Assembly: GCA_004335835.1 (NCBI GenBank)
Contig: RWJK01001083.1
Span: 8,483-72,482 of the forward strand
Reading direction: 5' to 3'
DNA from: Scenedesmus sp. ARA3
Taxonomy: Eukaryota > Chlorophyta > Chlorophyceae > Sphaeropleales > Scenedesmaceae
Length of the DNA: 64,000 nt
Shown here: positions 524 to 60,400 of the stretch, piece by piece
Position numbering within the stretch: position 1 is the first letter of the stretch
Layout: every line of letters starts with the position of its first letter
The notes under the pieces: model-generated
Told to the model about the DNA's origin: nothing
Database searches by the model: none
The model's input: the letters and a program-made list of their open reading frames with translations, nothing else
Translations under genes and position numbers: made by a program

Positions 524-2146
524 GGCAACATCAACAGTTGTTGACGTGATGTGCTGGTGCTCTAGCAGCCCAGCAGCAGACTGCACCGGCGTCACAGGTG
601 GCAGGCCGGCCATGTGTTATGCTTTGCCAGCTGCTGAACTGCTGCTGGCTGCTGAAGCACTGCTGGCTGCTGCTCTGACCCGACAGGTGGTATGGCAACA
701 AAAGACACCCAGCTGTGTCAACAGGCACAACAACCCAACAAACGGACCAAGACAGCACACCTAAGCAGCACAGGGTTGGCTGCTTGCTCTCACCTGGCAG
801 GTGGTATGACAACCAAAGAAACCCAGCTTGGGTCAACGGGCACAACAATAACAACAAATGCATCCATCAAGCGCTTCCAAGCAGCGCCGGGCTGGCTGCT
901 GCTCTCACCTGGCAGGTGGTATGGCAACAAAAGTCACACAGCTCGGGTCAACAGGCATGACAACCCAACAAACGGGCCAAGAAGCGCCAGGCTGGCTGCT
1001 GCTCTCACCTGGCAGGTGGTTGTGTGGCACCCTGATGTGCACGGTCACGCTGGCGTTGCTGCCGCCAGCTAGCTTGAAAAAGGGGTTATCTGAGTGCGTG
1101 TAGTTGCCAGATGCTGCAAAGGCCTGGCTGGGCACGCCAGTGGCTGTGTGCATACCTGGTCAGATCAAGCAGCAGATAAATACACACAACAGCCTGAGAT
1201 CACCGTAAAGAGATCTGTAGCAAGGGATGCTGCTGCCTGGTGCATGTCGTGGTGGTGTTGTTGAGAGGCAAGAGGCGCAACAGGCAGCAGCGCACTGTGT
1301 TCACTGGTGCCAGGCAGCGGCAGCAGCCTCGTCACGCCACTCACTGTCGCCTGCTGCCAGTCTCTGCAGCAATCCATTGCTGTGCACCTGACAGCAGGTT
1401 GCTGAGCACACCATCACACAAACGGGCAGTGTCTTGTCGCACAACCATGCAAGCACGCGCTGCAGGGGCCAGCTGCTGCGGCATGTGCTGCTGTTCATGC
1501 AGCAAGCACAGGCTGTACAGGCTGTACAAGTATAACAGCGGATTCAACTGCGCATTTTGCAGCGCAGCGCATATCAGGCAAAGCTAGGCCCAAAGATTTC
1601 TCATGTACACAGCCACCATCTTCAAGGTGCGCCAGACAGCTGAGCTAAGATAATCTCACCGTGGGTGTGTAAGTTGGTCACCATGCTGTGCTGCCACCAG
1701 TTTGTGGTGCCGTTTTTACTCAACGCATTGCGGGCCAGCTGCGTCAGCTGCGAGCTGTTTGCTGCAGCATGAGCTGGCAAGCCATTGGTGAGCTTTATGT
1801 GGTATGTTTCTCCCCTTTTGACCCTGATTGTCGGACCAAATGGTGCTGCAAGTCCTGTGCTGTCATCTCTGTAAGCTGGGGCTGTGAACTGTATGTAAGG
1901 CGGCCAAGTGATACGCACAGGCAGCAGCGTGATGGACACATTTGTGATTGCCTCCTTCGGGTTCACGGTTTTGCTGCCTGGCAGAGAATCAATAGGTTGA
2001 CCAGCTGCGATGTGAAACGTGTGTTTCGGTGCTGCTGCTGCTGCTGTCTTGATGGGCTGCACATCCACTAGCAGCAGCAGCAGTAGCACTGCCACTGTGC
2101 ATGCACTCGAACTCATGATGTCTGCTGTTTTGAATGTCGATGGCAT
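83..2146 (-). CDS. Multicopper oxidase (laccase-like), 5' part
   Basis: Three exons fit with matching phase: 2146-1660, 1155-1009 and 487-83; the rest lies left of the window. The N-terminus has a hydrophobic leucine-rich signal peptide, so the enzyme is probably secreted. The first copper motif NLHTHG ends exon 1, a DNPFF block lies in exon 2, and the second motif HWAHPHIHG opens exon 3. These two HxHG motifs supply ligands of the type 2/type 3 copper cluster in multicopper oxidases, which couple one-electron substrate oxidation to reduction of O2 to water. The later copper motifs are not in the window. A second in-frame Met at 2116 starts directly at the signal peptide and may be the true start. 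Family assignment is firm; the substrate (phenolic, metal or bilirubin-like) cannot be told. Exon 3 joins through the donor at 82, so the CAG repeat at 1-59 lies in the next intron. Confidence 0.85.
660..1020 (-). repeat. Intron array of exon-2 donor-side copies (multicopper oxidase)
   Basis: A unit of about 100-115 bases containing the exon-2 end and its donor (plus-strand motif cacctggcaggtggt) is repeated. The functional copy is at 1006-1020; further copies are at 906-920, 791-805 and, more decayed, 676-692. The units continue with a similar segment rich in caacaaaag and ggcacaacaacccaacaa. Each copy therefore carries a potential decoy 5' splice site for the minus-strand gene. Confidence 0.85.
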
Positions 2147-2932
2147 CCGCTTGAGGCTCTTGCAATAATAACAGTGCTGATCAGGTTACACGCGTGTTGG
2201 CAGGCTGTGCGTCTCATATGCCGCATTGCATCAAAATGGGATTTGATGGGGGCTGCTTCTCGCCCAGGCCTGGATCTCCTCAAGCAAACTTTTGATAAAA
2301 GCATATTGATTGTTTAAGCTCAAATAATTTCACATTCCTCGTTTCCTGTAGGCCAACTGCGCGTGCCGTGTGTCGCAGTGACTTGTTTCGTTCCGGAATC
2401 CTTGAGCGGCCGAACAACGTATGTTCAGCGCTCCACAAGCAGTCAAAGAGAATGAAAATTTTGATATATATTTGAGGGTGGCGTCGGCACAACAACAAAC
2501 ACGCATGCCTGACTGAAGGTTACTGAAGGGCCAAGCAGGCAATTGTCACCAGCACGAGCTGCTCACGTGTTCCAGTGAGACAGCTATAGCTGCGTCTATT
2601 TCCTCGTCGCTCCAAACAATCTTAGAGCGACCACACAACTGATTCAAGTGAGCTGCTGCCAGCGCTCTCATGCCAGAAGGACGTAGCACAACAGTTGTCT
2701 GTGACACTGACACTGTCTGAGACACCACCCGCCGCGGCTGCAGTTGAAAGTGAGCAGTACGTTGTACAGCTCGCACAAACAGGTGCACTGGCAAAGCACC
2801 CTGTACATCTGTTGAGCAATTCAAACTCTCCTGTGAGTGTTGCGACAGCATATAGATGGTGCACACACTCTCACAAACAACAGCACTGGCAGCAGCAGCA
2901 CTGCTTGCACACCTCCTGCACACCACAGCATC
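2147..2932. other. Intergenic between tandem minus-strand genes
   Basis: Holds the 3' flank of RNF113/CWC24 and the promoter side of the multicopper oxidase. A TTACA (minus-strand TGTAA poly(A) signal) lies at 2186-2190, only about 40 bases upstream of the next ATG. The short minus ORF at 2546-2926 has no recognisable domain and I do not call it a gene. Confidence 0.6.
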
Positions 2933-6516
<3,584 letters not shown>

Positions 6517-8625: not shown

Positions 8626-8671
<46 letters not shown>

Positions 8672-10488
8672 CTGGTGCTGGCGTGGTGCATGTGTCTGAG
8701 CTGATCAGGCGCTTCCGTGAGGGCCCCGCGCTGCCCCGGGAGCTGCGTACCAACATGAGCAGCATGCGCTGGCCCGCAGCAGCAGCAGCAGCAGCAGAGC
8801 CAGCAGCAGCAGGTGCGGCAGCAGGTGCGCCAGCTGTGTCTGCAACTGCAACTGCAGGAGGGTTTCAAACAATGGCACAGGAAGCAGAGCGGTATGATGC
8901 AGCTGCAGGCTTGACGGGTGGTAGCTGCGGCAGCTATGGTGCAGCAGCTGATGCAGGTGTATCACAACAGTATGGCATCCGGAGCAGCATGACTGTTGAT
9001 GATCATGCAGCAGCAGCAGCTGGTGCTGCTGCTGTGTCAGCTGAGGGCTCAGCAGCAGCCAGGTACCTGGCAGTGGCAGCTCCTGCATCCAGCAGCAGCA
9101 ACAGCAGCTATCATGCAGCAGCAGCCCTGGCGCGTCAGTGCTGGATTCGGATGCAACAGCAGAGCTGCTTGAGCGCTGCCGGCGGCTGCTGGCTAATAAG
9201 CCGGCCGCAAACAAGCCAGCACCAGCAGCAGCAGCCTCCACAAACAGCGCCATCGCCAGCAGCAGGAGTCCCCACAGTAGCAGCAGCAGATTTGCGAGCG
9301 CAGCAGCAGCAGCAGGGGCGCAGGGTGCGCGGTCTGTACCGCAGACAGCTGCTGGCAGCAGTGCCGGACAGCAGGGCAGTGCCGCGAGTACCTGGCGGCA
9401 GCGCCTGGTGAGCTACATAAGATCTTTCAAGCGACATGAATTGCCGTTAGCAGAACAGAAGCACTGTCAGCTGGCAGTTGCCTTGTGGCTATCTATCTGC
9501 TGTCGTGCAATGCATGCTGCGTGTTGCGAGTACCTGGAGGCAGCGCCTGGTGAGCTGCTTGATGTCGACCAGGAGGCATGATTGTGCTTCGGTAGATCAC
9601 CTTCAGTTGTTATGCTGCTTTGTGCCTCTTGATTGTCTTGCAATGCATGCTGTGGGTTGCGTGTGTGTTCATGTTGCAAGGCATATGGTCCGATGTGTTG
9701 CTGCCATCGCGCGTTTGGCTGCAAGTAAGCACCATCAGCCTGAGTTCAAAAGCCAGCATGCAGCAGCGCACAACAGGCCCACTATGCGGACCGCTTGGTT
9801 GATAGTCCTCACAGACTGAACTCGTCATATGACTGACTGCCTTGCTGCTCCTTGCCGCATGTCGGGCTGCTGCTGCGCCACCTGCTTGCAGAGGCAACTG
9901 CTGGAGGAATTCGGCACACCAGCTGCTGCACCTGGCCAGCAGCAGCAGCAGCAGCAGCAGCAGGGCAGCGTAGCTACATCCTCGCCTCCAGCAGCAGCAG
10001 CAACAGCAGCAGCAAAAACTGGCGTAATTGGTAGTCTTAATACAGTTGACGCTTCCCCAGGGGACCTGCTGCAGCAGTGGCGCATGCAGCGGCAGCAGCT
10101 CAACCAGCAAGGCGGCACACTGGCAGCAGCGCACGCAGTGTCACCCAGCCGCCAGTTTGCAGCCAGCCTGAAGCAGCAGCAAGATGCAGCAGGGCCAAGC
10201 AGCAGCAGCAGCAGCAGCTGGCAAAGGCAGCTTGAGCAGCTGCTGCAACGACCTGCGGTGCAGCAGCAGCAGCAGCAGCAGCAGAGGGTGCTTCCAGAGC
10301 TGCCGTCCCTTGATGGTTGGAGGCAGCTGCTGGCAGCGCAGAACAGCAGCAGCGCAAGCGTCAGCGCTGCTGCCACCTCCGCTGCAGCTGCTGCTGCCGG
10401 TGCTGCCGCGCGCTCTGCGGCACTTGCAGCAGGCCTGAAAGCACTCAGTCCCAGCAAGGCAGCAACACTGGGTCCTACTGCTGCTGGA

Positions 10489-10521
<33 letters not shown>

Positions 10522-10679
10522 TTGCAAGGTAAAGAGCTGCTGCAGCACTGGCGGGAGCGGCTGAGGGCTGCTGCAGCTGCTGCAGAGGCGGCAGGCACTG
10601 CTGGCAGTGCTGCAAGCGGCAGCAGCAGCTCGATTGTGTTTTCGCCATTGTCACAGCCTGTTTCCAAACCAACAGCAGC

Positions 10680-10722
<43 letters not shown>

Positions 10723-12282: not shown

Positions 12283-12315
<33 letters not shown>

Positions 12316-13920: not shown

Positions 13921-13952
<32 letters not shown>

Positions 13953-17522: not shown

Positions 17523-18390
17523 CTACTGCTGCTTCCCATCCTGCTGCTGCCCCTGCTGTTGTTGCTGCTGCTGCTGCTCTGCTTCCTCTTCCTCTGCTCC
17601 CGCTGCAGCAGCATGTGTCACCACTGGCAGGAAGTACAGTGGGAAGTGCCAGTACTTGTTCCTCACGCCTTGCCACACATCATCGCCCAGCTCAGCCACT
17701 CGCAGCTGCTCAAAGCGAACCTGCAGCTGCTGTGTTGCCAGCTCCACCTGCACCAGCCTGCAGCAGCCAGCAGCATCAAAAGGGTGTAATGGGTGTGTTG
17801 AACTAGAGCAGCGTCAACATGCAGAGGGTGCCTCTGGTTGGCGCAACACGTGTGTGACTGCACAGTCACAGCACTGGGAGCAGAGTCTGCCTCCCGCCAG
17901 GTTTGCAGTATGAGTTTCAGCACATGCTGTGAACCACACACCTGCCGTACACCGAGTGGAAGATTAATTTGCCTGAGACCCGGCCGGTGAAGCAGCTGTA
18001 CACAGCACCAGCTGAAAACAGGCAATCTGATGTCCACTGCGCCGCACGCAGTCTGCGCAGTATCAACCTCACCTGCCGTACACGGAGTGGAAGAAGAAGT
18101 TGTCTGAAGCCAGGCCATTGAAGTAGCTGTACACGCCGCCGGGGCGCAGCAGCCGCGGCAGCTGCTGGTGGAACTCCCGCATCTCCTCGTAGTACTCGCC
18201 ATACCTGCATGCATTTGTGACATGCGTTGTGTTGCTGAACATAACACAAATTGAGCTCTGACGACAAAGAGTGAAATGCAGACAGGCTTCAGAAGTGTCT
18301 GTGGCATCGGTTTCCGCTTTCATGAACTGCTAGCATCCTGGACATTTGCGCGATCTGGGTTGTCCGCTTCATCAGAGCAGCATGACCACT

Positions 18391-18423
<33 letters not shown>

Positions 18424-20340
18424 GACCACTCAGCAGCAGCAGCAGCAGCTGCAGCGATTCATGCACACACTCACGTGTCAAAGAAGATGCCGTCATATGA
18501 TTCCAGCTGCGGCAGCACCTCCTGCCAGCGCCCAAACAGCACCCGCACGCCAGGCCTGCTGTCCCAGCCCAGCTTGCACATGTGAGCATACACGTCAGGG
18601 TGGGCCTCGATGATGGTGTGGCTGGCTGGGCTGTAGCGCTGCAGGCAGCAGCAGCAGCAGCAGCAGCAGCAGGCCAGGGGACGTGCAGCAACATAAGGAG
18701 AGTAAGATGTTGCTGCGCATTTCCTCTATCAGGAGACAGAAGCTGGAGGTACCAGGGTCGCCAAGCAAATAGCACATTTGAAAGTCCCACATCTTCAGCG
18801 TCCATATATTCCTGCAGAATGCACGTCCAGCACTGCTTCGTGAGGAGTTCATTACATTGCAAGTTTGAAGTATAGGCCTGCATGACTCACGTGCTGTAAG
18901 GGCTGGCAGCAGCTTTTGAGTGTGCTTGACTGGCAGCATCTTTTGAGTGTCATGCTGCGTCAGCGCCCATGTCAAGTCCGCACCTGTATCTCATTGTCAA
19001 CAATGCCTAGCCCAAAGCCCACGTTCAGGTAGTGCCCGCCGCCGCCCCTGCATATGGCTGCTGCATGCTTCTCCATGAGGGGCGCTTCCCACCCCATCAT
19101 CACTGCTTCACCTGCAGCGCAAAAACAGCAATAAGACAGCAGTCAGTTGATGCACTGGGGGCTGCACACCCAGACACTGCCGGCAGCAGGCTGACTCACC
19201 ATCTGCATCAAGCAGCTTGTCACCATCTGCAACACGCACCACACCACACCACAGGAATGCGTGCCAGCAAAGCAGCTGCTTGGGGAATCATGGCCAGCCA
19301 GCTGACTCTTGCCCCTCACCATCTGCATCGAGCAGCTTGTCACCATCTGGCGTGTACACCAGCTTCTGCTGCAGGTAACCGGCATTGGCTGCTGAGCTGC
19401 TAGCTGTGCCAGATGTGCTTGCTCCCTCACTTGTCCTGCAAGCACAGCAAGCACAGCACCAGCTGCTCGTTGCCAGTAGCAAGCTGCCGTAGGTCACCCT
19501 TTGCTGGATGCTTGTCCCTCTGTTGAGGAGGTGGTTCAGTCGTAACTGCAGCTTTCAAGAGCAGCGAGCGCTGCAAAGTGGCACAGCGACTGCATGCGAT
19601 GAGCAGGTGTCTCTGCCAGCGCTGGTTCTGCTGCAGACAGTCAAACAAGCTCATTTGCTTCTGCTTTTTGCTAAGGCGCCGCCACATGTAGCTGCTGATA
19701 CCTCTCCCATTACTAAACGCCCACCTGCTTGCTGCTCCCAGCAGCAGCTCTGCTTGAACGCCCCACTCCATTATCATCTCCACTGCAGCAAGCAAACACG
19801 ACTCTCTGCTGCTGAGCATGCCACAACCACTGGACGAGTTCATACATGTAATTGAAGGTTGCTTGGCATGCTGCTTTATGAGGTGCCTAGCCAGCAGACA
19901 GCAATTGCCACTGGCGTCACTTTCGTACTTTGCGTAAGATAACTCCGCTGCCACTGGTGCTGCCAGCAACAAGGCGACCTGATGCTGACGCTTTACACCA
20001 TGATCAGAGCTACACGTTGCGCAAAGCGTGCCTGATTCATATCAAAGGCCTTCTCACCTATCTCGTGCTTCTTGCTGGCAGTTGCATACTCTCCAGCACA
20101 GTAGCCTGACTTGTCCTGCTGGTTCCAGGGGGCACCCGCCTCCAGCAGCGCTGCTACAACCGCTGTGTGCCCGTTCTCTGCTGCTGTCATGAGTGCTGAT
20201 GTGCCTTCATCGTTTTGGTAGGTGACATCTGCGTTCTGGCTGCACAGCTGCTTGACTAGTTCAAGGTCACCTGCCTCTGCAGCAGCCCACAGCTGCTTGT
20301 CCAACTCTGTGGATCCTGGCGCTGAGCTTGGCTCGCTCAT
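17523..20340 (-). CDS. RMT2: RMT2-like protein arginine methyltransferase with ankyrin repeats
   Basis: Seven exons join in phase: 20340-20058, 19782-19725, 19435-19320, 19111-18984, 18638-18475, 18204-18073 and 17757-17523; 371 residues. Exon 1 encodes ankyrin repeats (AAEAGDLELVKQL, SALMTAAENGHTAVVAALL). The C-terminal half is a SAM-dependent methyltransferase: LNVGFGLGIVDNEIQ (motif I), IIEAHPDVYAHM, DGIFFDTYGEYYEEM and LLRPGGVYSYFNG. This order of ankyrin plus methyltransferase is that of yeast RMT2, which methylates the delta nitrogen of arginine on ribosomal protein L12; plants have homologues. The C-terminus is extended by a Glu/Gln-rich tail encoded by CAG repeats. Exon ends 3 and 6 have intronic echoes. 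Confidence 0.94.
17930..17995 (-). repeat. Echo of RMT2 exon 6 (donor side)
   Basis: Diverged copy of the exon-6 end (VYSCFTGRVSGKLIFHSVYGR-like) with a donor, in intron 6. It is open in frame but most differences change amino acids, unlike most echoes here. Confidence 0.85.
18385..18450. repeat. CAG tract with a tandem flank
   Basis: The phrase gcatgaccactcag plus a CAG tract occurs twice in a row in RMT2 intron 5. Confidence 0.85.
19192..19235 (-). repeat. Echo of RMT2 exon 3 (donor side)
   Basis: Copy of DGDKLLDADG plus GTGAGT donor in intron 3. The only difference within the copied coding part is synonymous. Confidence 0.88.
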
Positions 20341-31276: not shown

Positions 31277-34200
31277 TCAAGCGTCGTCCTCCGCCTCCTC
31301 GACTGGCTCGCTGAGGTCCAGCCCCGAGGCCTCGCCCTTCAGGTGCCTGTCCACCTGGCCCGCCTGCTGCAGCAGCGCCGCGTGCTCCGCCTCGTCCACC
31401 TTGAACACCGGCGACAGGTACTTGCCGCGCACCTCGTCCAGCTCAGCAGGGGAGATGTCGGCCTGCGGCGGCAGCAGCAGCAGCAGAGGCAGCAGCATAA
31501 CTCACTTGCAGATCAATAACCAGCGTAGCCGAGACTGTGCACAACATCACAGCCCCTACATCCTCCAGCGGCGGCTTCGGTGCAAACAAGACTCCAGACC
31601 CTGGACGACTCCAAATTGCAGCACACTGCAGAGCGCAAATAGTTGTCCATAGTGTTACATACATAGCAATAACAACAAATACAATAAGCTTCCTGGCTCA
31701 TAGCATGCGTCCAGGACCGTCGTCTCCTTGGCGGTCCCACCTTACCAGTCAAAGACTCGAGCAAAGCCAACCGCTGCCATTCTGCTCTGTTGTCGATTCA
31801 AGAAAGACAGCAAGGAAATAGAAAATAACAAAATGACAAGCCCTGGCTCACCGGGTCGCGCTTGTCCAGGATTGCCGCCTCCTTGGCGCTCATCAGCGTC
31901 CACGGCCTCCTGAACAGCTTGGTGCAGTTGCTGTGCACCACGGCCGTGAACACGATCAGCGGGATGATCAGCGCCGCGAACGCAAAGCCCTTGACCAGCA
32001 GCACACACAGCGCCATGACCTGCAGGAAGTAGATGCCCGTCATGATCTGGTTGAAGCACTGCAGGGGCAGAGAGGGACAGCAGCGGCAGCAGCAGCAGCA
32101 GCAGGACGTCAGCGAAGAAAGCAAGCTTCAAAAAGGGTCTTCGGGAGAACAGCAACCTTGCCATGACACGTACACAGTCCGCTGCAAGAGGTGGCCAGCA
32201 ACTGCAAGCCAGATGCAGGCAAATGCAGCAGCAGCACTCACGGTCATCCACATGCACCCCGCGGCCTGGTAGGGACAAAAAACACAGCTGGCCAGCAGAC
32301 CCATGCCGCGCTAAAACACACAGCATGGCAGCAGCAGCAGCCGCAGCACTCACGTTCATCCACATGCGCCCCGCAGCCTGGTACGGCAGCGTGACCACGT
32401 ACACCAGCTGGTACTTCTGAGCCAGCAGCGCCAGACTGAAGTACAGCAGGCAAAAGGGTGCAATCAGCGGCGCCAGCACAGTGAAGGCCAGCCCCAGCAG
32501 CAGCACCATGGTGTGGTTGGCCACGTTGGTGCCGAACTCGTAGTTCTGCTTGGCCCAGAGGCGGTAGCGGGCCCGCTCCGTGCCTGCCAGCTTCATGAAG
32601 ACGAAGAAGAGGATGAGGCCCACCAGGCGCAGCAGGCCGCCGCCAATCGCGCAGGCCTGCAGGAGATGAATGTGCAGGCAGCATAGAAACACATCAGCTT
32701 CATGAAGACGAAGAAGAGGATGAGGCCCACCAGGCGCAGCAGGCCGCCGCCGATTGCGCAGGCCTGCATGGTGTTGAAGGTTAGGGGCAGTGGCAGGCGA
32801 AGCAGAGGCAGCGGGGCGTGAGGTGCAATCCGAGAATTGCAGGGGATGAGGCGCGCCAAGGGCAGCAGGTTTCAGGCGATCACGCAGGCCTGCAAACTGA
32901 ATCATTCAGATACGATGCAGCAAGTAAAGTCTGCGCCGCGCCCCTGCCCTTGGAGGTAGCTGGAACGTAGCTGTTGCACACGCATCGCAACCCCACTCAC
33001 GTTGATGAGGTTGTATGACATGTAGAAGGAGGAAGTCTGTGCTGCACCCACGCCCAGCAGCTCCGGCACGCGCTTGGTGGGCTCAGCTCACGTTGAGGAG
33101 CATGCATGCATGTAGAACACGCAGATCTGCGCTGCGGCTGTCCATAAGCCAGCTGTCACCGTACCAACCAAGATGGTGCCAGGGCCCACACGCAACCCTC
33201 CTCTCTAATCAGCCAGTTCTTGCACAAGCACGCAAGACGCAACTCACGTTGATGAGGATGTATGACATGTAGAAGGAGGAGGTCTGTGCCGCGCCCACGC
33301 CCAGCAGCTCCGGCACGCGCTTGGTGGGCTCGTCCGCGATCTCGCGGAACTTGTTCACCACGCTGAGCAGGTCGCTGGTGACAGTTCCCAGCAGGAAGTT
33401 GAAGATGAAGACCGCGAAGACCTGGAAGATGAAGAAGCGGCCCACTGCAGGAACAAAGTTCACATGGAACATTGGCAGCAACGGACGGCAGGAGGTGAGA
33501 TATAATGTGCAGCAGGTCAGTGGTTGAAGATGAACACGGCATAGACCTGGAAAGTGAAAAAGCAGCCCACTGCAGGAACACAGCAGATGGCAAGCAACGA
33601 TAGCAGGTCAGCAGAGTACTACTACAAGTAATAGTCTGTAGTACAGACCTGCAGCTGCCAGGCTGCCACATAGCTGCTACCTCCACCGCCAACAACATCA
33701 GCTATTCACTGCAGCCGGCACGTCCATGGCTGCCCTCACCCCCCACACTCACCGACTGAGAAGTCCACCTCGCTGAGTGACACCTTGCCCTCAAAGCAAT
33801 CTGCATGCTGACCTTTGCTAGCTACGCCCAACCCATCCACTGTTGCCCACTAACCCCACTCACCGACTGAGAAGTCCACCTCCTGAGTGACACCTTGCCC
33901 CTGACTTGCAGCTGCCTGCTGCTGCTGCTGCTGCTGCCAAGCTGTCGCTGGCCAGGCCTGTGCCACCACTGCTGTAACGCCTCACTCTTCCAACTCTTGA
34001 CTCACCGACTGAGAAGTCCACCTCGCTGAGTGACACCTTGCCCTCGAAGCGCGCCATGGCCTTGAGGATGGGCGGCACCAAGATCAGGAAGATCTTGAGC
34101 ACCAGACCTAAGCAGCAGCAGCAGCAGCAGCAGCGGCGGCGGCAGCAGCGCTCGTCAGTCACAGCAGTGCCGTGGCCTGCCAGCAATGGCAGTGAAGAAT

Positions 34201-36713
34201 CCTGACAGTGAACAACAGGCGCTTCACGGTCCCTTTTGGCCAGCCTGCTGCACGCTTTCAACTCGTTGCATGACATGTGTGAACCAGCCCACAGCAGCTT
34301 TGCAGAGCATTGACCACACAACAACAGAGCAGCCCACAACCCAACGAACAACCCCACAGCCTCACCGGGCAGGATGCCCTGCAGCACCTGCTGCACACCT
34401 CAAAATGCAAGTCATGCAGTACAGCAGCCAACTAAGTATAGCACCCAATTGGACAGATCGCGGATCCAGACTAACAAAGAATCAGCAACCACCAAACCCA
34501 GCCTCACCTGGCAGGATGCCCTGCAGCACCTGTGTCACGAACGGCAGCCGCACAATCACGTTGAGCCCGGGGATGGCGCTCGCATTCTGCAGGTTGACCA
34601 CCATCTGAATCGCCGCAGTGATCGGCAGGTAGAAGACCAGCATGGCGATGAAGACCACCCACATGCCCAGGCTGCGCATCACGCGCTGCTTGTAGCGCAT
34701 GGACAGGTTGCCCCAGATGATCTCCTCGCTGTCGGGGGCGGGCTGGATGCGCCACGCGGTCTCGTCGTAGGACTGCAGCCCGGTGGCGGCGGCGTTGGCA
34801 GATGCACGGTCGCTGCACAACAAAACGGCAGGACATAGCAGGGATTCATAAGGGCACAGGAAGACAGGCGACATGAGAAGCCAGCAAATGGCATGTCCAC
34901 GCTCAAGCGCAGTCGAGCTCCAGTTGATGGCAGAGCCACTCACTTTACTGTCACGAGGCAGCAGGCAGGCGTGCATCCTTGATAACATTACCTACCTAAA
35001 GTTCACGCGTACACCAGACACGCTGGTGCACTGCCAGCCGCCCCAGCCACTCACTTGAACGTCACGAAGGCAGCAGGCAGGTGTGCCTCCTTGATGGCCT
35101 CCCTCTCTGTCTTCATCTCACCCAGCAGGTGCTCCATCTCCTGCGGCAGGTACTCCAGCGCATCCACCTTGACGGCCTTTGTGCCCACATTGTAGCGCTC
35201 CTTGGCCCACTTCGGGGTGATGGCAGGCAGCAGCGACACCTGCGGCAAGCGTGTGATGTTTGTAGAAGCACATGATGCGTGCATTACGCCAGTCTCGACA
35301 CTACCTACATACGCTTGCTGAATACGCAGATCTCTTCACGCCTCGACACAACCTCGGCCCGCTGCTGCTGACCCTACACTTAACGCTGCCCCTCTGCTTG
35401 CGGCTCCTAGTCTCGACACCACCAGACCGCAGCTGCTGCTGCTGCTGCTGTCGTTCATCGGACCCTGCCGCACCTCCTTGCGCTTCTTGATCTCTTTGCC
35501 TACACGTGCCTGCTGCATTGTCACTGACAAAGTATGCACTGCCCTTCTGCTTCTAACCATGCCTCCAACTGCTGCTGCTGCCCCAGTTCCCAAAACTCTA
35601 CAACACTGCCACACCTCCTTGCGCTTCTTGATCTCCTTGCCACGGCGCAGCTTGCCGTCATAGCCAATGATCAGGCAGGTCTGAAACGGCATGTTGATCC
35701 CAACACCGCCCAACCGCTGCAAAATCTGGACCCACCTCCTTGCGCTTCTTGATCTCCTTGCCGCGGCGCAGCTTGCCGATGTAGTCATCCGTGATGTCCT
35801 CCAGCTGGCTCTTGCTCTTGTCGTACTTGGCCAGCAGCGGGTCCAGCTTGGCCGTGTTGTACACCACGTTGACCGCAGCCACCTTGGGCTCCCCATATGT
35901 GGTGGCCATCTCGTTGCGCACCATGCTCTGCAGTGCGGAGCACAGAGTGCAGCACAGAGAGCGCTCAGCAGCGTGATTGCACAGCAGGGTAAGGTGATGC
36001 ATGATGCGTCGGCAGCAACAGCATCATCAGCAACGCATGCTGTCAGACCTGCATGAGTGTGCCACCACTGCTACTGGCAGGATTGCTGCCTGTGAGCAGC
36101 ATCTTCAAGCCCGAGGTTGCAGTGACAACAACGCCACCCCCTCCAACAGCAGCTAGCCAGCGCATGCACCAGCCCTGCAGCACGTGTCGATGGGACAAGC
36201 ACCACACCGCATGTCACTTTAGGATGAAACAACTGTTGGGTAGGGGATAGCAGAGGTGTGTTACATTGTGCAAGGTGTATGATATGATCTGGGACGATGT
36301 GATGGTGTAAGGGTAGCGTGCATGCTGCTCACCTTGGAATTGCCGGTGCGCAGCTGTCTGCCACCATTGCACCCACGCCAACCCCTTCCACCAGCTGGCA
36401 GCCAGCACATGCAGCAGCAGCAGCAGCAGCAGCAGCGCATCTGCACGAGACAAGCACCTCAGCAGCAGCAGCTCACCTCCGCGTTGCCGCTCTGCAGCTG
36501 GCTGCATAAGCCGCAAGCACCGCAGCCCGCCCGCACATCTACCCACGCAGCTGGCCACATGCACTTGCCACAAAGCACACCAGCAGCTCACCTCAGCGTT
36601 GCCGCTGCGCAGCTGGCTGCGTGCGTCTGCCCAGGGGCACAGCACATCATCATCAATGGCAGTGTAGCCGTGGTGGCCTGACACTGACCCCTTGCCGCCA
36701 AGCTCGGCATCCT

Positions 36714-36748
<35 letters not shown>

Positions 36749-39400
36749 GAAGCTGCCCGGTCAGCATGCTGGCCGAGGTGCCACTCCCCGCCAAAAATGG
36801 GCGCACACTAATCTGGAAAAAGTCTGCAAACTTGCAAGGCGGACTTGCTGTACAGTGACCCGAAGCTGATGCTCTGATTGACAGGCAGAAAGACGGACAG
36901 TCAGGCGGCCAAAAACCCCATCAGGTTTTCGGCCGTCTGACTGGCCGCCTTTCTGCCTGTCAATCAGAGCATCAGCTTGAGGTCACTGCACAGCAGGTCA
37001 GCCTTGCAAGTTTTTTGATTTGAGTTGGTATGTCATCCCATATACCATGACTAACATACCGATATAAAGATTTAAATGACGCTCCCTCACCAGCCGCTCC
37101 TCCTTGTAGCCGGCTGGCTCCGTTGCTGCTCCACTCTTTGAGGGCTCCTTTGCACCCAGCGCACCACAGCCAACACCACACGCAATGAAAGCAGTACCCC
37201 AACAGAACACAGCCTCCCTCACCAGCCTCTCCTCCTTGTAGCCGGCTGGCTCTGTTGCTGCACCGCTCTTGGAGGGCTCCTTTGCGCCCAGGCCATCCAC
37301 GCAGGGGATGTCTGTGATGAGCACGCTGTGGCTGGTGCCACCACGCGGCAGCGTAGACATGAAGCGCGCACGCAGGCGGCTCACATCGTTGGAGAAGCCC
37401 ACCAGCAGCTGCAAAACAACAGAGCGCAAGCAATGAGAGAGGAAAGTTACATATGGGTCCTGGCACCAACCAGATGAGAAGGTAGGATGCAGGGACATGC
37501 GCTCCACGGCGGTTCAACGCACTGACTTAAAAGGACAAGTGCAAGCACACTGGCTGCAGGTAGCACGCATGAAAACGGCGGGTGCAACCATGCAGCTGTG
37601 CTACTGAGCAAGAGCGCGGCAAGGGAGCCTACCAGCAGCCAACATCTGCCACAGTCCTTCTGCACACAGCCAGGGACCGGCTGGCAACTGCTGCTGCAGC
37701 GCTGTGGCCTCAGTCGACCCACACTACCACACACATGCTTACATCTGCGCAGCTGCACCACATCCCACAGCTGCTGTTCGTATGATTTGACAATGTTTTG
37801 GTTTACATTCTGCCTGTGCGCTCTCACCCCCAGGGCCACCAGTGACACCACATATGCGGAGATGAGGTGTGCCCACATGCGGGGGCTGCCCTGCGGCACA
37901 TTGCTGGTGCTGAGCAAGTCCAGGTCGCTTGTGGCAGGGGTGGGCGGCAGCCTGGCCTGCAGGATAGTGTGCAAGAAGTGCAAATGCAAGGAACGGACTG
38001 AGAAGTGACCATGTGTGTAGGAGCAGGATTGCTAAAATTCTGCGGGCGCGCCTGCAGGACAGTGTTCAGGGGATGACCGGCTAACTTGACCCCACTTCCA
38101 CAACATGCTTGCAGGAGCTGGCGACAACAATGACAGAGTGTGCAAGATTGATTGATGCGCTGTGGGGGTACCTGGCTGCTGCATGCTGCCCAGGTTGCGC
38201 TCCTGTTGCAATTGATTAAGTCGGCCCCAGATATGTGATAATAGCGCTGGCCGCTGCTGCTGCTGCTGCTGCTGCTGACTCATCCTGCTTACCAGGAAGC
38301 CTGCAGTGCCGTTGATGGGCATCAGCAGCGCACAGCACCAGAAGGTGCAGAACGCAAACAGCACCCAGCCTGCAGGGCGCAGTCAGGCAACAGAACAGCA
38401 CACACGCAAGGCAGTCAGGGCACTGCAGATGCTGCTGTGTGTGCATCCAGCATGCCAGCTGCCCAACAGCATGACAGCACAGTCTTACAGCCAATTGATT
38501 TTTGCACGATGCTTGCAACATGCGGAAAGAGATGTATTAAACACGATGCATATGAGATATCACACAATGCGCATGAATATATTTTCATGCAAGACACTAA
38601 CGCACTCTGCTGCTGTTTTGGGCATAGTATGCTTGCAGGAGATGCACTGCCCCTCTTGCAGGACAAACAGAGGCACCTGAGTGATGGCAAGTGCAACACA
38701 AGCAAATGCTTCTGCCATCCATTGCTTCCAAATGTCAGCATACTGGGCAAACCAACGGCATAATACATACCATAACTTCCGTGTCCTGCAAGCCCTCATG
38801 ACACCCACAACAGCCACATGCTGTACAGAACTGCACGCAACAACACAGACATGCAGACATGCAGATGTGGCCATCACTCACTGCTCACCGTATGACAGCA
38901 GGCGCACCATGACCACCACGTCCATGCCTGCAGTCCGCAGCATCTCGCCCTCATCATAGAACAGTGTGGGCGCGATCCACGAGAACAGCCCATTCGGAAG
39001 CTTCTTGGGCTTGGGCCTGACATCAGGGTCAAACCTGTGATGACAGAGATGGTTGACCGTGCAGTATGAATAGTGTGAAAGATGTTAGGGTCAATGTCCT
39101 TGCCTGCATCAGTCATGTTGCGCATCAACTGCGCAAGCAGCAGCTGCTGGAGGTGGCTGTTGTATTTGCTGCTGCTGCGCGGCGGTTGCTGTTGCGACTT
39201 GCACACAAGCAAGCATGCATACACAGAGCGTGATGGGCCACGCATGCATGCATGGAGCATGCGCAAGCTCACCTCTTTGGCGCATAGAACTTGCGCGTGA
39301 AGGGCTTGATCCTCAGAATGCTGAAGATGATGAGGAAAGCGCAGCACACTCCACCGTTGATGCCCAGTGCTGTGGCAAGCGACACGCCCGTCACTGCCAT
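31277..39400 (-). CDS. OSCA: OSCA/CSC1/TMEM63 mechanosensitive cation channel
   Basis: Fourteen exons join in phase: 39400-39273, 39034-38889, 38369-38293, 37956-37828, 37408-37223, 36711-36592, 35927-35736, 35239-35055, 34812-34508, 34107-34006, 33444-33248, 32656-32354, 32058-31852 and 31462-31277; 820 residues. The N-terminal membrane helix ends in ILRIKPFTRKFYAPKRFDP, followed by DLDLLSTSNVPQGSPRMW, a cytosolic domain with LPAAFVTFK, and DSEEIIWGNLSMRYK. The channel core follows: KIFLILVPPILKAMARFEG, ADEPTKRVPELLGVGAAQTS and FAFAALIIPLIVFTAVVHSN, then an acidic tail. Members are osmo- or stretch-gated Ca2+-permeable channels of the plasma membrane or endomembranes. Most introns contain partial copies of an adjacent exon edge. 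Confidence 0.95.
32236..32290 (-). repeat. Echo of OSCA exon 12 (donor side)
   Basis: Copy of YQAAGRMWMN with GTGAGTGC donor, in intron 12. One synonymous and two amino-acid changes. Confidence 0.87.
32685..32895 (-). repeat. Echoes of OSCA exon 12 (acceptor side)
   Basis: At about 32690-32770 the first 69 bases of exon 12 are repeated with their TGCAG acceptor; only two differences, both synonymous. A third, decayed copy starts at about 32890. Confidence 0.92.
32995..33140 (-). repeat. Echoes of OSCA exon 11 (donor side)
   Basis: Copy of the last about 80 bases of exon 11 (EPTKRVPELLGVGAAQTS onward) with GTGAGTGG donor; three synonymous changes and one Ile/Asn. A shorter nested copy follows at about 33085-33140. 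Confidence 0.9.
33515..33585 (-). repeat. Echo of OSCA exon 11 (acceptor side)
   Basis: Copy of the exon-11 start with CTGCAG acceptor, upstream in intron 10; about three synonymous and three amino-acid changes. Confidence 0.85.
33745..33905 (-). repeat. Two echoes of OSCA exon 10 (donor side)
   Basis: The segment GKVSLSEVDFSVG with GTGAGT donor is repeated at about 33750-33800 (identical within that part) and 33860-33905 (one-base deletion). Confidence 0.9.
34355..34400 (-). repeat. Echo of OSCA exon 9 (donor side)
   Basis: Copy of QVLQGILPG with GTGAGG donor in intron 9; a synonymous CCA/CCC change. Confidence 0.87.
34925..34975 (-). repeat. Echo of OSCA exon 8 (donor side)
   Basis: Copy of the exon-8 end with the same GTGAGTGGC donor; small indels break the frame. 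Confidence 0.82.
35460..35690 (-). repeat. Two echoes of OSCA exon 7 (donor side)
   Basis: Copies of GKLRRGKEIKKRKE and its donor at about 35610-35680 and, shorter, at 35465-35510. Confidence 0.9.
36320..36515 (-). repeat. Two echoes of OSCA exon 6 (donor side)
   Basis: Copies of QLRSGNAE with GTGAGC donor at about 36465-36505 and 36325-36360; they diverge with distance from the exon. Confidence 0.83.
36712..36747. repeat. CAG tract at the OSCA exon 6 acceptor
   Basis: About 11-12 CAG units, read as CTG in the gene, forming the tract and AG of the exon-6 3' splice site. Confidence 0.93.
36830..37011. repeat. Long near-perfect inverted repeat (hairpin) in OSCA intron 5
   Basis: Arms 36830-36917 and 36924-37011 (88 bases each) are reverse complements with about nine mismatches; the loop is about six bases. 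An RNA from either strand would fold into one long hairpin. It could be a foldback transposon remnant (MITE) or a small-RNA precursor. I see no coding content and no clear target-site duplication. Confidence 0.93.
37078..37165 (-). repeat. Echo of OSCA exon 5 (donor side)
   Basis: About 70 bases of the exon-5 end (GAKEPSKSGAATEPAGYK onward) with GTGAGGGA donor, in intron 5. All six differences from the exon in the aligned coding part are synonymous. Confidence 0.94.
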
Positions 39401-44589: not shown

Positions 44590-44627
<38 letters not shown>

Positions 44628-45704: not shown

Positions 45705-46340
45705 TGGAAAGTGGGCATTGGAGAGGAAAGGGGAGTATAGGGCTGAGGACGGAGCTCTTGCTGTTGCTCCTGCGGCGGTGCTGACATCTGTTGCGCTGCT
45801 GCCGGAGTGGCTGGCGCAGCAGGGGCAGTAATTGAAATTGTGTTTTGGAGAGGAAAGGGGAGTACAGGGCTGGGGTTGAGGCTGGTGCAGTTGCGCCTGC
45901 GGCAGTGCTGACGTCGGTTGCGCTGCTGCCGGAGTGGCTGGCACAGCAGGAGCAGTAATGGAATGTGCAGTTTTGCAGAGGGAAGGGGAGTACAGGGCTG
46001 GAGACGGAGCTCTTGCTGTTGCACCTGCGGCAGTGCTGACGTCTGTTGCGCTGCTGCCGGAGTGGCTAACGCAGCAGGAGCAGTAATGGGAAGTGAAGCT
46101 TGAAGAGGACCAGGAAGTATAGGGCTGGGGATGAGGCTGGTCCAGTTGCTCTGCGGCGGTGCTGACGTCTGTTGCACTGCTGCCAGCCAGTGGCACAGCA
46201 GGAGCAGCAATGGGAAGTACAGTTCTGCAGAGGAAAGGGGCGTGCAGGGCTGGGGACGAAGCTCTTGCAGTTGCACCTGCGGCGGTGCGGACGTTGGTTA
46301 CGCGGCTCCCGGAGTGGCTGGCACAGCAGGAGCAGCAGCG
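45705..46340 (+). repeat. 3'-flank satellite of the HDHD2-like C-terminal codons
   Basis: About five tandem units of roughly 125 bases, starting near 45730, 45855, 45980, 46105 and 46230. Each copies the last about 100 bases of the coding sequence (AGDEAGAVAPAAVLTSVALL and PEWLAQQEQ). The first few units keep the TAA; later ones drift. Third-position changes dominate in the units I aligned. Confidence 0.92.
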
Positions 46341-51136: not shown

Positions 51137-53434
51137 GTCAAAGAATGGCACAGCTGCTCATGGTGGGTAGTTCTTCGTGCTGCTGACAAGAAAGCAAGCA
51201 AGCATCAGGCAGACACTCAAGCTGTACATAGATCCAATAATCATACCGAATCAGTCAGCAGCTCACGATCATGGCATCCTCCAGATTCTTGATGCTGCTC
51301 TCCAGCAAGCAAGCATCAGGCAGAAACCCAAGTACCTAGACCAAAAACGTAGACCAAACAAATGCATGGAAAGATCAGCAGCGGCTCACGATCATGGCGT
51401 CCTCCAGCTTCTTGATGCTGCTGACCAGCAGCGGCTTGCCATCAACAGTGGAGCCCAGGTTGCGGCCGCCACTGTAGGTGCGCGTGGACCACTTGCCAGG
51501 GCCACCTGCACGCATCCACACATCATATGTGACATGTGCATGGGTGAGTGGAGTTGGATGATGGTGAGCGTGTGCTTCTGCTGCCTGCGCGTGCTGGTAT
51601 CAATATGCTGGTGCTCTTTTGGTGTGTCGACAGCAGCAGCTGGTGTCCAGCGCTGAACACAACCGCTGCTGTCAGCTGCCAAGGCACAGCACTCAGTTGT
51701 GCCCTGCTGTCACTCGGCATGACGCACGAATGAAACCACTGCTCAAGTACATAAGTCATGATCACGGTTGGTGGAGGCTAGACCTTGTGCAGAGCTGTAC
51801 AACTCAATCACACCAACAGCAACTGCGATTGCATCAGCACATTCCAACATCAACGTTGCTGGCATACTGATGAAGCCCTCTCCCTTAGAAAGCTATATAA
51901 AAGACATAGATATACGGAGAATGAATATGGGGATCGCTGATAATAGTGCGCGCACCTGTAAATTCAATGACGCAGCCAGCCACTGGCAGTGCATGCCTCA
52001 GCACGCCCACAGAGACGCAGAAGCCTGGGTAGTTGTGTGCAAAGTTGCAGGTGCCATCCACAGGGTCCACACACCTGCATCGTAATACCCAGCAGAAGCA
52101 TAGCCATGTAAAGTTCTGCAGCTATTGCATTGTGCCATGGGTACACCAGGTTACTTATGGCACACAAGTTCCCTCGCAGCTGCTCTTGCTGGATGTTAGC
52201 TAGCGGCCACGCCTCACCACAGGTAGTCTGAGTCATTGTTGCTGGTCATGCCTCCCAAAACGCAACAGGCAACCACATCTATGCAGCTGGCCCTGCTGGA
52301 TGCGTGGTGCTAGGTGCTGGCTAGCTCCCACCCTCAGGGGGGTGCGGCTCGCCACGGGTAGTCTGAGTCACCGCCGCCAGTCATGCCTTGCAGCTGCTCT
52401 TGCTAGTGCTTGAACACACAACAAGTGCTTCAGTTTCCTTGCGCGTGCTCTTGCTAGGTTTTGACTGCTGGATGCTGGACAGCTCACCACAGGTAGTCTG
52501 AGTCATCGTTGCCAGTCATGCCTCCCTCCTCCCCCAAAATTGCGTGGTCACTGAATGCAGCCTGCAGCACTGCAATGCACGCTGCTTCACTGGCCCGGTC
52601 TGCAGGCCAGGCAGCCGCAGAAAAGAGGGGCCCGTGTGGGTTTGTTGGCAGGTGGTGAGTTTGGGTGGGGTCCTGCAAGCTGTGCAGTGTTGGCTGCCTG
52701 TGTGCATGCTAGTGAAGGCAACTGTAGATATCACTGCTTTGATGCACAGCACCGCACAGGCATCCTGATGCTAACTGCTGCAACATTTGCAATCAACCAT
52801 GTGGACTCAGCGGCGTTGCTGCTACCTGCTACTACTGCACCAAGGGTTTGCAAGAGGAGCCACGCTGCTTAGTTGTACCTGTATCTGTTACGATGTCCCC
52901 GATGGAACCCTTTGATTGGATGTTGCGCGGCTTATCAAGTGCCTCCATCACCACCTGCGCAGAGAATGATAGGCGGGTGCTCAATGAGGTCTGGTGAATG
53001 CTGTCAGGCAATCCTGCCTGTCCTGCAAGCCTTGTGTGCTGTGACACGTCAGATCAGTGCCACCTGGCTATAACACCAGCTGCCATGAATAGCCCAGAAT
53101 AGTGAGGTTTCAGGCAGTCTGATGAGCATACACTTGGTGCAGTCAGTGCCAATGCCAGATCGCCTGATCACGACAGTTGAGTACTACTCATAGTATGTGC
53201 TGCTGCTGTGCTGTTGCTGCTGCTGCAGCTATAGTCATTCTGCTGCAGCAGAGGAATGCTGCTAGCAAACAATCATACCTGTGCCCCTGCAGTTGCTGCT
53301 TTCTCGGCCACTTCACGTAAGTCCTTCACTGCCACCTTGCTGGCTTGCACCACCAGCCTGTGTCGGGATAATGTACTGCTGCGTGCCCTGCTGCATTGTC
53401 GCAAGCTGGAGTGCCGGTATTTCAGCGACTGCAT
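50017..53434 (-). CDS. IMPL1: Inositol monophosphatase family protein, IMPL1-like
   Basis: Eight exons join in phase: 53434-53279, 52954-52879, 52599-52488, 52074-51956, 51505-51390, 51102-50970, 50555-50392 and 50130-50017; 329 residues. A basic Ser/Arg-rich N-terminus (MQSLKYRHSSLRQCSRARSS) looks like a plastid transit peptide. Metal-site motifs are present: ILGEEGG, DPVDGTCNF and KPYDVAAG. The family hydrolyses inositol monophosphates and related small phosphates with Mg2+ and is lithium-sensitive. The YSVFDRSLLATN stretch resembles plant IMPL1. The last exon (VLQVVEGPTSRAMQQG onward) was chosen over reading through exon 7 because splice sites and phase fit. Exons 3, 5 and 7 have echoes. 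Confidence 0.91.
50585..50645 (-). repeat. Echo of IMPL1-like exon 7 (acceptor side)
   Basis: Copy of the exon-7 start (GQI, then QYKLKP-like) with its CTGCAG acceptor, in intron 6; diverged, with indels. Confidence 0.78.
51107..51133. repeat. CAG tract at the IMPL1-like exon 6 acceptor
   Basis: About nine CAG units (CTG in the gene) directly upstream of the exon-6 3' splice site. Confidence 0.92.
51255..51305 (-). repeat. Echo of IMPL1-like exon 5 (donor side)
   Basis: Copy of SSIKKLEDAMI with GTGAGC donor in intron 5; one synonymous and one amino-acid change. Confidence 0.88.
52205..52390 (-). repeat. Two echoes of IMPL1-like exon 3 (donor side)
   Basis: Copies of GMTGNDDSDYLW with donor at about 52210-52255 and 52340-52388; in the second the donor GT has become GC. 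Confidence 0.88.
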
Positions 53435-57438: not shown

Positions 57439-60400
57439 ATGGAGCAGCAACAAGGTCAGCAGGCGGAACAAAGCTGCATCACCCAGCAGCGAAGAGAGGC
57501 TGCAGGATCGGAATGCTGGCCGTTGATTGATTGCCTTTTGTTTCCGTATGAATCTAAAGATGCCAGCAACTCAGCATTAGCTGCCAGGGGCTGCTGCAGC
57601 AAGTACCAGCACTGCCACAGCAGCCCAACATCGATTTGGGCTGCACGGTTCGCTGACTGATGTTGCTTTGCAATGTTTGTAGGCCTAGCCTTGTGGCTTT
57701 TCCTGCTCCTTACTGTGCGGGCAGTGGGGCACGCCCTCGCATATCAAAATGCAAACAAACAGGTGGGCCTGTCCTGCAGCGGGTCGGCAGCTTGCTCAGT
57801 GCGTACAGATTGACCGCTATGTGTGTTTGGAGCAGCGTCTGGCGATGTGGCGAGCGGCTGCACAGCCAGGTGCAGCAGACATGCTATTCAGCAGCAGTGG
57901 CAGCAGCAGCAGACCAGCGCTGGCATCATCACCTGTGCAGCTGAGCAGTAGACAGCAGCCATTGCACAGGTTGCTCAATTAGCTGATTGTCTTACGGGCA
58001 GCTGCAGCACGTCCGCGAGTCTACATGATCAGGCTGTGCCGCATCAAACTTGAGCCGTTTGTCACTGGCTGGCCTGCTTGCACATGTGCAGATCACTGCT
58101 GCCGAAGCTGGTAAGACCTTTGCGCCTGAGTGGCGCATGGAGGCAACAGCACACGTGGCCTCGCTGATGGTCCGGGACCAGCAGTGCAAAGTGAGCACGC
58201 ACTGCAGCTGCATGCAGCGGCTGCTCAGCTCTGCCAGCACAGCACAGCAGCCGTGCTGGCAACAGCAATGCGGCAGCAGCTGTTTGGTTGGTGGTACTGC
58301 TCGTTCTTCTGCAGCATTAACAGCTGGCATCTCTTATCTGGCTGCAGGGTGTTGCCGCTAGCTGTCTTGACAGCTTGTTAGCAGGCAGCTGTAGGCACTG
58401 TTGGCAACACAGCAGCTTTCCAACGCTGCTGTCTGCTGCAATGGTAGAACATCACAGCAAGTGCTGCTTGCTTTTTGGCAGCTGTGGCAGTTGTGGCGTG
58501 TTCTGTGCCTGCACGCCTAGCTGCCTAGCGGCCGCCAATGACAGTCTCGACATCTGTTGCTGCTGCGTGTGTTGCCGCTGCGTCAGCAGGGAGACCCAGC
58601 CAACTGCGACTTGCAGGAAGGGGCTTCAGATGCGATCGAAACACTATCGAAATGGGCTGCAGGAGATAAAGGATGGTGAGCAGTAATACAAGCAGCGGCA
58701 GCAGCATGCTGGCTGCATTACTGGGAATGGCAAGCAGGCTGAGCAGCTCAGCAGTGTGCACTGTGCTGTCCTGCAGCCAGCAGCGGTGCGGCGCATGCCT
58801 CTGTATGCCTCTGTAAGCTTTGCAGGAACTGCAGTCGCATGTTGCTGGTGCACCGCAAGTTCTGCGCTGCATGACTTTCCGCTTATTGAGTTGCGCGCGC
58901 TCACTGTGCACCTTGCTGTTCACCTGAGCCTGCCGACTTGTGTCTGTCTGTGTTTGCACCTTCCTGCACCTTCCTGCAGGGAGCGGCTACTGTCCTCGGT
59001 GTCGCTGTACGCCATAGCGCGACACGCATACCAGGAAGCAGAATACGATGAGGCGATCATAGCGCTAGAGGAGTCGCTCGCGTTGCGGCTCTTTGCGTAT
59101 GCAGACCAGAAAACCCTAGACCGCTGGCAGCAGGGGCTGGTCATGCCAGGCAGCTTGTTCAGGCGGCAGAAGATGGACCTGGCAAACATGCTGGTGCTGC
59201 GCTCGGATTGCTTGGTGCAGCTGGCACGGGTGAGCGGCAGCAGCAGTTGGTGCACAGCAGGGGCAGCAGCAGCAGTAGTGTCGGCTGTGTCAGCTTGAGA
59301 GTAGTATCATGGCAGCGATAGGAGCCAGTAATAGAAGAGCATGATGCTGCTGCTCCTGGGCGCAGCTGACGTTTGCATCTTGGCATGTAAATTTCAGACC
59401 AGCAGCACTTGGCATGTAGATTGTATCACGTGACCAGCCCAGCAACCAGCTTCATGATGCCTAGCTGGCATGCATGTGGCACGGCATCTGGCCATGCAAA
59501 CAGCAGCGTCTCATCACAGCTGCCGCTGCGTTATGCTTTGCTGCCTTGACACTGCCGCACTACAACAGCAGCAGCAAGTTGCTGACAACTTGTCTGCTTC
59601 ATGCCTTGCTGCCTTGACATCCCACAACACGAACAACAAGATGCTAACCACTTTCTTTTGCTTTGTACCTTGTCGCCGTCCCACAACAGGAGCAGCGGGA
59701 TGTTGACGACCTCACCGAGGCAATGGAGCTGCTGCAGCTTGCCACAGCGCTGCTCAAAGGCGGCGATGAGCTTGTGCCAGACAGCGTGACAGCCATCAGC
59801 CGGCGAGCTGCCACCATCTCAGCTATGGCGGCTGAGCTGCTGCCGCAGCTCAAAACCAGCCGAGTAAAAGAGGTGCTAGAGCACCACGGCATTGCCTGCA
59901 CCGGCTGCAGCAGCAAAGGGGACTACCTGCTCCGGCTAGTGCCCTTGCTGCGGCTGCCGGTGCATGTAGCGGGCCCTGGCGGTGGCAAGGCAGCCTCTAG
60001 CAGCAGCAGCAGCAGCAGCGGCAGCTTGCCGAGCATCGAGCCGCTGTCAGACCCTTTCAACAGCCATGTAACTGCGCTGCTGAAGAAGCCGCAGGAGCAC
60101 GTGGCGCAGTACATGCAGCGGGTGTTTTTCCGGCTGCTAACCCTGGTGCCTGCAGACTACCTTGCAGAGCTGGATGTAGCTTGCAGGCGCAATGATGCAA
60201 AGGGGCGCTGCATCAGCTACCTGCCGCTCTGGGTGACAGCGCAGGCCATTACCATAGACAAGCGCACTGGCCTGGCACATGTCTCAGGGCCAGGCGCGTG
60301 TGCAGGCGATGGCACAGGCGTGGGCGATGATCCAGCATTGGATGTGCCACCCCCTGGGCAGGCGTCAGTGCCAATGTGTGGCGGCCCAGGAGGGGGACCT

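Follow-up and report, generated by a model that had tools for sequence, protein, structure and literature searches.

Copies of exon edges with their splice sites in introns of a Scenedesmus genome, and their relation to tandem duplications of about 120 bp

Introduction

Why should the introns of a green alga hold, beside one exon after another, a second copy of that exon's end together with its splice site? The question is raised by a stretch of 64,000 nucleotides from Scenedesmus sp. ARA3 (here called the window), which corresponds to bases 8483-72482 of its source contig in a genome assembly of 87.3 Mb and 1567 contigs. A preliminary description of the window had reported copies of this kind, termed exon-edge echoes, in at least nine genes of unrelated function, had held their placement to be far from random and had set the pattern apart from known forms of tandem duplication. 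What is understood of intron lengthening and of the origin of splice sites comes mostly from inference on isolated examples. In three genes of the window, one third of the exon edges carry a copy of themselves, so that a single species could serve to measure how often splice sites are duplicated, how long the units are, and how the copies are tolerated and decay. In this work, we find that the echoes are tandem duplications of about 120 bp spanning splice sites, and we weigh whether both copies come from one allele or, as a tentative best explanation, often from two.

Exon edges are copied into adjacent introns

Exact exon borders were obtained from Tetradesmus obliquus proteins for three genes, which together hold 24 introns and 48 exon edges: an OSCA/ERD4-like gene (31280..39400; 14 exons and 13 introns), an RNF113/CWC24-like gene (2936..6417; six exons and five introns) and an RMT2-like gene (17526..20340; seven exons and six introns). 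These genes, and all echoes and echo-like copies of the window described below, lie on the reverse strand (-). In spliced alignments with T. obliquus, the OSCA/ERD4-like protein shows identity at 818 of 820 (P0001) and 816 of 820 residues (P0003), the RNF113-like protein at 307 of 310 (P0030) and the RMT2-like protein at 369 of 371 (P0150). At the level of protein sequence, these identities indicate that the window belongs to T. obliquus or a very close strain, and the exons flanking the echo-bearing introns splice into proteins nearly identical to the T. obliquus records.

The block at each edge was compared by alignment with its own intron and, as a control, with introns that were neither its own nor neighbours in the same gene, and a score above 40 was taken as an echo. 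Echoes were found at 17 of the 48 edges, distributed over 14 of the 24 introns, with scores of 59-172, whereas the highest control score among the 48 blocks was 33; the other ten introns showed none. Donors were affected in 12 of 24 cases and acceptors in five of 24. All 17 echo blocks span the splice site, each repeating head to tail a unit that includes it, and the claim that exon-end copies with their splice site are real and recurrent is thus upheld. An earlier run restricted to the OSCA/ERD4-like gene gave one control score of 61, because the block of a 102-bp exon also included its other edge. When 60-mers from the middle of exons were aligned to the adjacent introns, three of 46 tests exceeded 40, each at an exon with an echo on the edge of that side. 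In addition, self-comparison of the window by BLAST gave 37 near direct-repeat pairs, overlapping rows counted, against one near inverted pair.

The OSCA/ERD4-like gene carries echoes in eight consecutive introns (5 to 12), and none scored in introns 1-4 and 13. The donor echo of intron 5 (37082..37159; true edge 37214-37291) shows 92% identity at a spacing of 132 bp, and its six exonic differences are all synonymous (6/6). The same intron contains, a few dozen bases past the echo, a palindrome formed by a 186-bp self-inverted repeat (36828-37013; 88%), possibly a foldback element. The donor echoes of introns 6 (36463..36505; true edge 36578-36620; spacing 115 bp) and 7 (35612..35657; true edge 35733-35778; 98% identity, spacing 121 bp) are each accompanied by a third copy, a weaker one at about 36327-36361 in intron 6 (spacing 259 bp) and one at 35471-35500 in intron 7 (spacing 262 bp). 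The donor echo of intron 8 (34934..34983; true edge 35045-35095) lies at a spacing of 111-112 bp with one gap, that of intron 9 (34342..34390; true edge 34486-34532) at 142-144 bp, and that of intron 12 (32225..32274; true edge 32337-32386; 90% identity) at 112 bp. Introns 10 and 11 show both kinds of echo. In intron 10, the donor echo (33747..33797; true edge 34000-34050; 98% identity) is found at a spacing of 253 bp with a poorer middle copy at about 33858-33900 (spacing 143 bp), and the acceptor echo (33523..33583; true edge 33398-33458; 85% identity) at 125 bp. In intron 11, the donor echo (32974..33084; true edge 33220-33331) is found at 246-247 bp with a degenerate middle copy at about 33087-33136, and the acceptor echo (32695..32781; true edge 32588-32673; 93-95% identity) at 107-108 bp with a third copy at 32841-32894 (spacing 233 bp). 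In both introns, the donor copy two units away is nearer to the exon sequence than the copy one unit away (33858-33900 and 33087-33136, respectively).

In the RNF113/CWC24-like gene, acceptor echoes are located in intron 1 (5488..5545; true edge 5357-5414; 93% identity, spacing 131 bp), intron 2 (4963..5038; true edge 4842-4919; 91-95% identity, spacing 121 bp) and intron 3 (4250..4371; true unit 4129-4245), the last with 77% identity over the whole unit at a spacing of 121 bp and an intron part that is still similar. Intron 3 also has a donor echo (4625..4676; score 64, spacing 142 bp) whose GT is now GC, and intron 4 has a donor echo (3794..3904; true edge 4030-4140) with 91% identity and a spacing of 236 bp. 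The RMT2-like gene shows donor echoes in intron 3 (19195..19229; true edge 19315-19349; 97% identity, spacing 120 bp) and intron 6 (17939..18003; true edge 18070-18134; 83% identity, spacing 131 bp), the latter decayed, with eight nonsynonymous and three synonymous differences.

Echoes share their period with full-unit tandem repeats

Measured from the true edge, the best copy is 107-142 bp away in 14 of the 17 echoes and 236-253 bp away in the other three, two of which are the donor echoes of OSCA introns 10 and 11 with their poorer copy in between. Among the 34 repeat pairs of the window with E<=1e-3, the spacing is 100-159 bp in 23, shorter in two, 220-279 bp in eight and about 380 bp in one, with a peak at 100-139 bp. 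The same period is shown by 25 full-unit tandem loci (units of 60-157 bp) found in the window, in a 200-kb sample of 20 other stretches hand-chosen along seven long contigs, and in kinase loci; at least five of the 25 include an exon edge in our reading. Within the span for which echoes had been described, several repeats are ordinary full-unit ones, located at 664-1020, 9384-9664, 44531-44734, 45584-46337, 51193-51430 and 59526-59710. The repeat at 45584-46337 is a minisatellite of approximately 5.8 copies of a 127-bp unit, with the period of the echoes. One of the 25 loci, a 101-bp tandem duplication (L028:1328-1530) whose copies are 100% identical, is evidently very recent.

A protein-kinase gene in another part of the genome (L007) shows a four-copy array at 376-790, in which each unit consists of an exon end and a CTG-rich intron start; both parts are recognisable and the exon part is better preserved. 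Further donor and acceptor copies are present elsewhere in this locus. The shared period and this array tie the echoes to ordinary tandem duplication, and therefore the view that the pattern stands apart from known tandem duplication is not sustained. Duplication of the whole unit, exon and intron, is visible in the L007 array and in the intron 3 acceptor of the RNF113/CWC24-like gene, whereas the average of the 17 echoes is at chance past 15 intron bases.

Placement was assessed by counting repeat pairs in which a donor motif stands at the block end in both copies and comparing them with random blocks of equal length, a test that counts donor copies only. In the window, 11 of 21 partial pairs showed the motif vs. 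2.4 expected, so that placement there is far from random, as had been claimed. The 200-kb sample contains 13 full-unit and 24 partial repeats, and six of the 24 partial pairs showed the motif vs. 2.8 expected (standard deviation 1.5); the association with donor sites is thus strong in the window and weaker, about twofold above chance, outside it. The kinase loci gave two of eight pairs vs. 0.9 expected. These counts from other parts of the assembly show that echoes occur genome-wide, and the present window is unusually rich in them, as expected of a window picked for them.

The fillers between the true edge and the echo were also compared with other sequence: 16 of the 17 had no match in the window and the 200-kb sample beyond copies in their own intron, and a dispersed inserted family as the filler is not supported for these 16. 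The exception is the filler of OSCA intron 11, which contains a short dispersed repeat; further copies of this repeat are found in intron 4 of the same gene and in six or more other places. Its copies at 37417-37468 (intron 4) and 33160-33209 (intron 11) have opposite orientations. A genome-wide search was made with window positions 31800-37520, which take in OSCA introns 5-12 and part of introns 4 and 13, and 40 of its 172 candidates were scored. Six loci (L031, L032 and L034-L037) share 57-131 bp of this repeat at 80-95% identity. The repeat may represent one end of a mobile element.

Divergence between echoes and exons

Ungapped identity between the 17 echoes and their true edges is 0.91 over the final 20 bases of the exon. 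On the intron side, it is 0.97 at the first two bases and 0.84 at bases 3-6. Farther into the intron, it falls to 0.53 at bases 7-10, 0.42 at bases 11-15 and 0.25-0.32 beyond, similarity being at chance level from about 16 bases onwards.

Across 865 exonic sites, the echoes show 45 synonymous and 28 nonsynonymous differences and one gap, a synonymous share of 62%. The share expected from the substitution spectrum of 15 full-unit tandem pairs, meant to be non-coding although two L007 pairs include exon parts, is 25% if only the echo changes and 40.5% if silent sites of the exon also change freely; the excess over the latter is significant (P=2e-4). GC-biased drift was rejected as the source of this excess, since synonymous changes comprise 18 GC-to-AT vs. 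16 AT-to-GC.

Splice sites and encoded residues of the echoes

The GT or AG dinucleotide is retained in 16 of the 17 echoes, which makes them, as judged from sequence, potential decoy splice sites, in line with the preliminary description. Use of the echo site would give an in-frame open extension in only one of the 17. Echoes may also mislead gene prediction: the T. obliquus protein P0031 (window 3422-4169) continues from RNF113 exon 4 through intron 4 and an echo, whose copy there is shorter and diverged, and lacks exon 5, which is probably a gene-model error caused by the echo. The presence of an echo at RNF113 intron 4 is thus not confined to this assembly. In P0031, the first 18 intron bases after the exon and after the echo are mutually compatible, as read from the protein and not from DNA.

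Amino acid changes affect 26 codons and, by our count, the echo residue matches no aligned orthologue at 22 of them. The other four are OSCA 377 (P0004 and P0005), OSCA 379 (P0004), RNF113 224 (P0030 and P0031) and RMT2 286 (P0152). At OSCA 377 and 379, all three compared T. obliquus sequences show E and H, while the intron 8 echo encodes D377 and R379, as does the outgroup P0004; this echo therefore holds older or foreign states. Polarising the differences by second echoes or multi-copy alignments was dropped, as a third copy may derive from the second and outgroup DNA would be needed.

Origin of the echoes

The best explanation, to which we give a probability of about 0.4, is tandem duplication of approximately 120 bp that is tolerated at splice edges and whose copies often come from different alleles. 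Segments of about 120 bp would often be duplicated in tandem in this genome, and a duplicate landing across a splice site would be tolerated because splicing can go on at the site beside the exon body, with the second copy leaving as part of the intron. The extra copy, the echo, would then be without a coding job and would decay. Many copy pairs may represent two alleles of the gene that had diverged beforehand in their introns and silent positions; the exon parts would then match, with the adjoining intron parts unlike because the source alleles already differed. A plausible route would be a break in the intron repaired against a homologous chromosome with unlike intron sequence; copying would continue beyond the break into exon sequence of the other allele before the end was joined, giving exon A, the start of intron A, the exon end of B and intron B. 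In favour of this explanation are the period common to echoes and full-unit repeats, the L007 array, the steep fall of identity at the intron edge, the synonymous excess and the D377 and R379 residues of the OSCA intron 8 echo; the single in-frame open extension and the 22 codons without an orthologue match agree with the lack of a coding job. A related Scenedesmus is described as likely diploid with separated alleles, and a 'haplotype' of obliquus UTEX 3031 is mentioned in the same source (PMC7955037).

Simulations with hand-picked settings, eight in each of two runs and not a fit, bear on this proposal. Alleles diverged by 0.12-0.4 gave a synonymous share of 0.49-0.74 and an identity of 0.31-0.54 at intron bases 16-20, nearer to the observed share and steep fall than simulations of identical copies, and purely intronic duplicates became hard to find only at an allele divergence of at least 0.3. 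Several results weigh against this explanation. The measures call for different allele divergences, with 0-0.12 for the total number of differences, 0.12-0.3 for the synonymous share and 0.3-0.5 for the steep edge, so no one setting fits all, and the near absence of gaps (one) is fitted well by none (best P of about 0.03). The synonymous excess is absent in RMT2 intron 6, OSCA intron 8 and RNF113 introns 1 and 2, and is weaker outside the window, where 15 pairs, with frames guessed from codon use and some pairs sharing an exon, show 39 synonymous vs. 38 nonsynonymous differences. Furthermore, the donor-motif enrichment is weaker in the 200-kb sample, and the unit size of about 120 bp is left unexplained. 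The allelic origin, the repair route and the absence of function are inferred.

If the copies come from different alleles, echoes would record lost allelic diversity. A bolder form of the proposal, which we regard as rather unlikely, is that break repair against a strongly diverged homologue lengthens introns by about 120 bp at a time, each step printing the exon edge of the other allele, so that echoes would be a record of past recombination between diverged alleles, including lost ones.

Plain tandem duplication within a single chromosome and subsequent neutral decay, in which edges seem sharp only because introns change quickly and the copy in the exon is protected, is also rather unlikely, and fits the drop at the intron edge and the synonymous excess poorly. 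It requires nothing special; it agrees with the period common to the full-unit repeats, with the L007 array that keeps both parts, and with the 200-kb sample, whose 13 full-unit and 24 partial repeats, only six with the donor motif, show no strong edge preference. Identical copies with decay reproduced the total of differences in simulation, but they gave 40% synonymous changes instead of 62% and an identity of 0.49-0.62 at intron bases 16-20 instead of 0.25. Purely intronic duplicates were 0.7-0.9 times as findable as edge duplicates in these simulations, whereas reading of the repeat lists showed none with a unit of about 120 bp in the 24 introns, echo-to-echo pairs aside. Traces of similarity in the intron part are seen in the OSCA intron 11 donor and in the acceptor of RNF113 intron 3. 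Residual similarity of the intron parts was rejected as proof of plain duplication, since it did not clearly exceed that of the exon-side control (mean z of 0.78 vs. 0.76 in one run and 0.91 vs. 0.46 in another).

Gene conversion from the exon could have kept the exon-like part of old tandem duplications alike while the intron parts diverged fully. This would account for sharp edges where homology ends, and for the far copy being nearer to the exon than the middle copy in OSCA introns 10 and 11; it leaves the synonymous excess unexplained, and the 25-105 bp of exonic homology are short for gene conversion, so that we consider it unlikely.

An assembly artefact, in which two overlapping, diverged haplotypes were joined one after the other, would yield two alleles in a row. 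For a related genome, diploidy and a separation of alleles are likely, and the window is richer in echoes than the 200-kb sample. The three- and four-copy arrays with decayed members, the variable rather than constant spacing and the presence of the RNF113 intron 4 echo in the separate T. obliquus sequence P0031 make such an error improbable.

Functional echoes kept by selection, such as alternative or poison exons, are very improbable: nonsynonymous differences and gaps are below the neutral expectation and 16 of 17 dinucleotides are intact, but the exon edge alone is copied, in-frame open use is confined to one echo, the RNF113 intron 3 donor echo has lost its GT, and a poison exon is not expected to show coding constraint.

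Comparison with known systems

Paired nicks or polymerase-theta joining produce short tandem duplications. Such repair would resemble the formation of echoes in its product, although these routes have no tie to splice sites or to allele differences. Tandem duplication at splice boundaries is already known, and the echoes form a variant of it. In the potato RdRp gene, as outlined in PMC4974935, one tandem genomic duplication across an intron-exon boundary made a new intron. As in that case, a tandem duplication in the alga spans a splice site, and exon and intron sequence would be duplicated together with the splice signals; unlike it, the alga shows many events, an unchanged spliced protein, donors as well as acceptors, a period of about 120 bp and intron parts that are usually unlike. 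In the Rogers AGGT model, as told in PMC4974935, a proto-splice site within an exon is duplicated in tandem and an intron is gained, and cases of proto-splice-site duplication are given for Drosophila (PMC2891723). There too, splice sites are supplied by tandem duplication; however, in those accounts an exonic unit becomes an intron of unit length, whereas in the alga the extra copy sits in the intron and is skipped. Introners, as characterised in PMC9860276, form families, each made up of copies of a single element, and some have target site duplications of 3-9 bp. They share with echoes the recurrent insertion of splicing-linked sequence across many genes, but the extra sequence in the alga is a copy of the neighbouring exon edge, and a dispersed repeat occurs in only one filler (OSCA intron 11).

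In a literature search, judged mostly from listings, none of the listings reported that copies of exon edges recur within introns. What seems to be new is the number of copies, the narrow unit, the similarity limited to the exon side and the possible two-allele signature.

Other repeats and reading frames of the window

A Pfam search with ten long open reading frames of the window matched none of the ten. A stop-free frame of 1532 codons at 9820-14418, which contains many CAG/GCA runs, has no Pfam match; triplet runs are common across the window.

Beyond the three genes with exact models, the donor motif stands at the block edge in both copies at only two places of the window. The first is a putative donor-like echo pair at 28864..29075 (spacing 139 bp, 89% identity), in which the motif ends the block in both copies. 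The second is a putative donor-like echo triplet at 52213..52526, with spacings of about 135 and 270 bp and 88-93% identity, in which the motif is found in the 52213/52483 pair. In addition, a putative acceptor-like tandem copy is located at 27978..28155, with a unit of 96 bp, 94% identity and an acceptor judged by eye.

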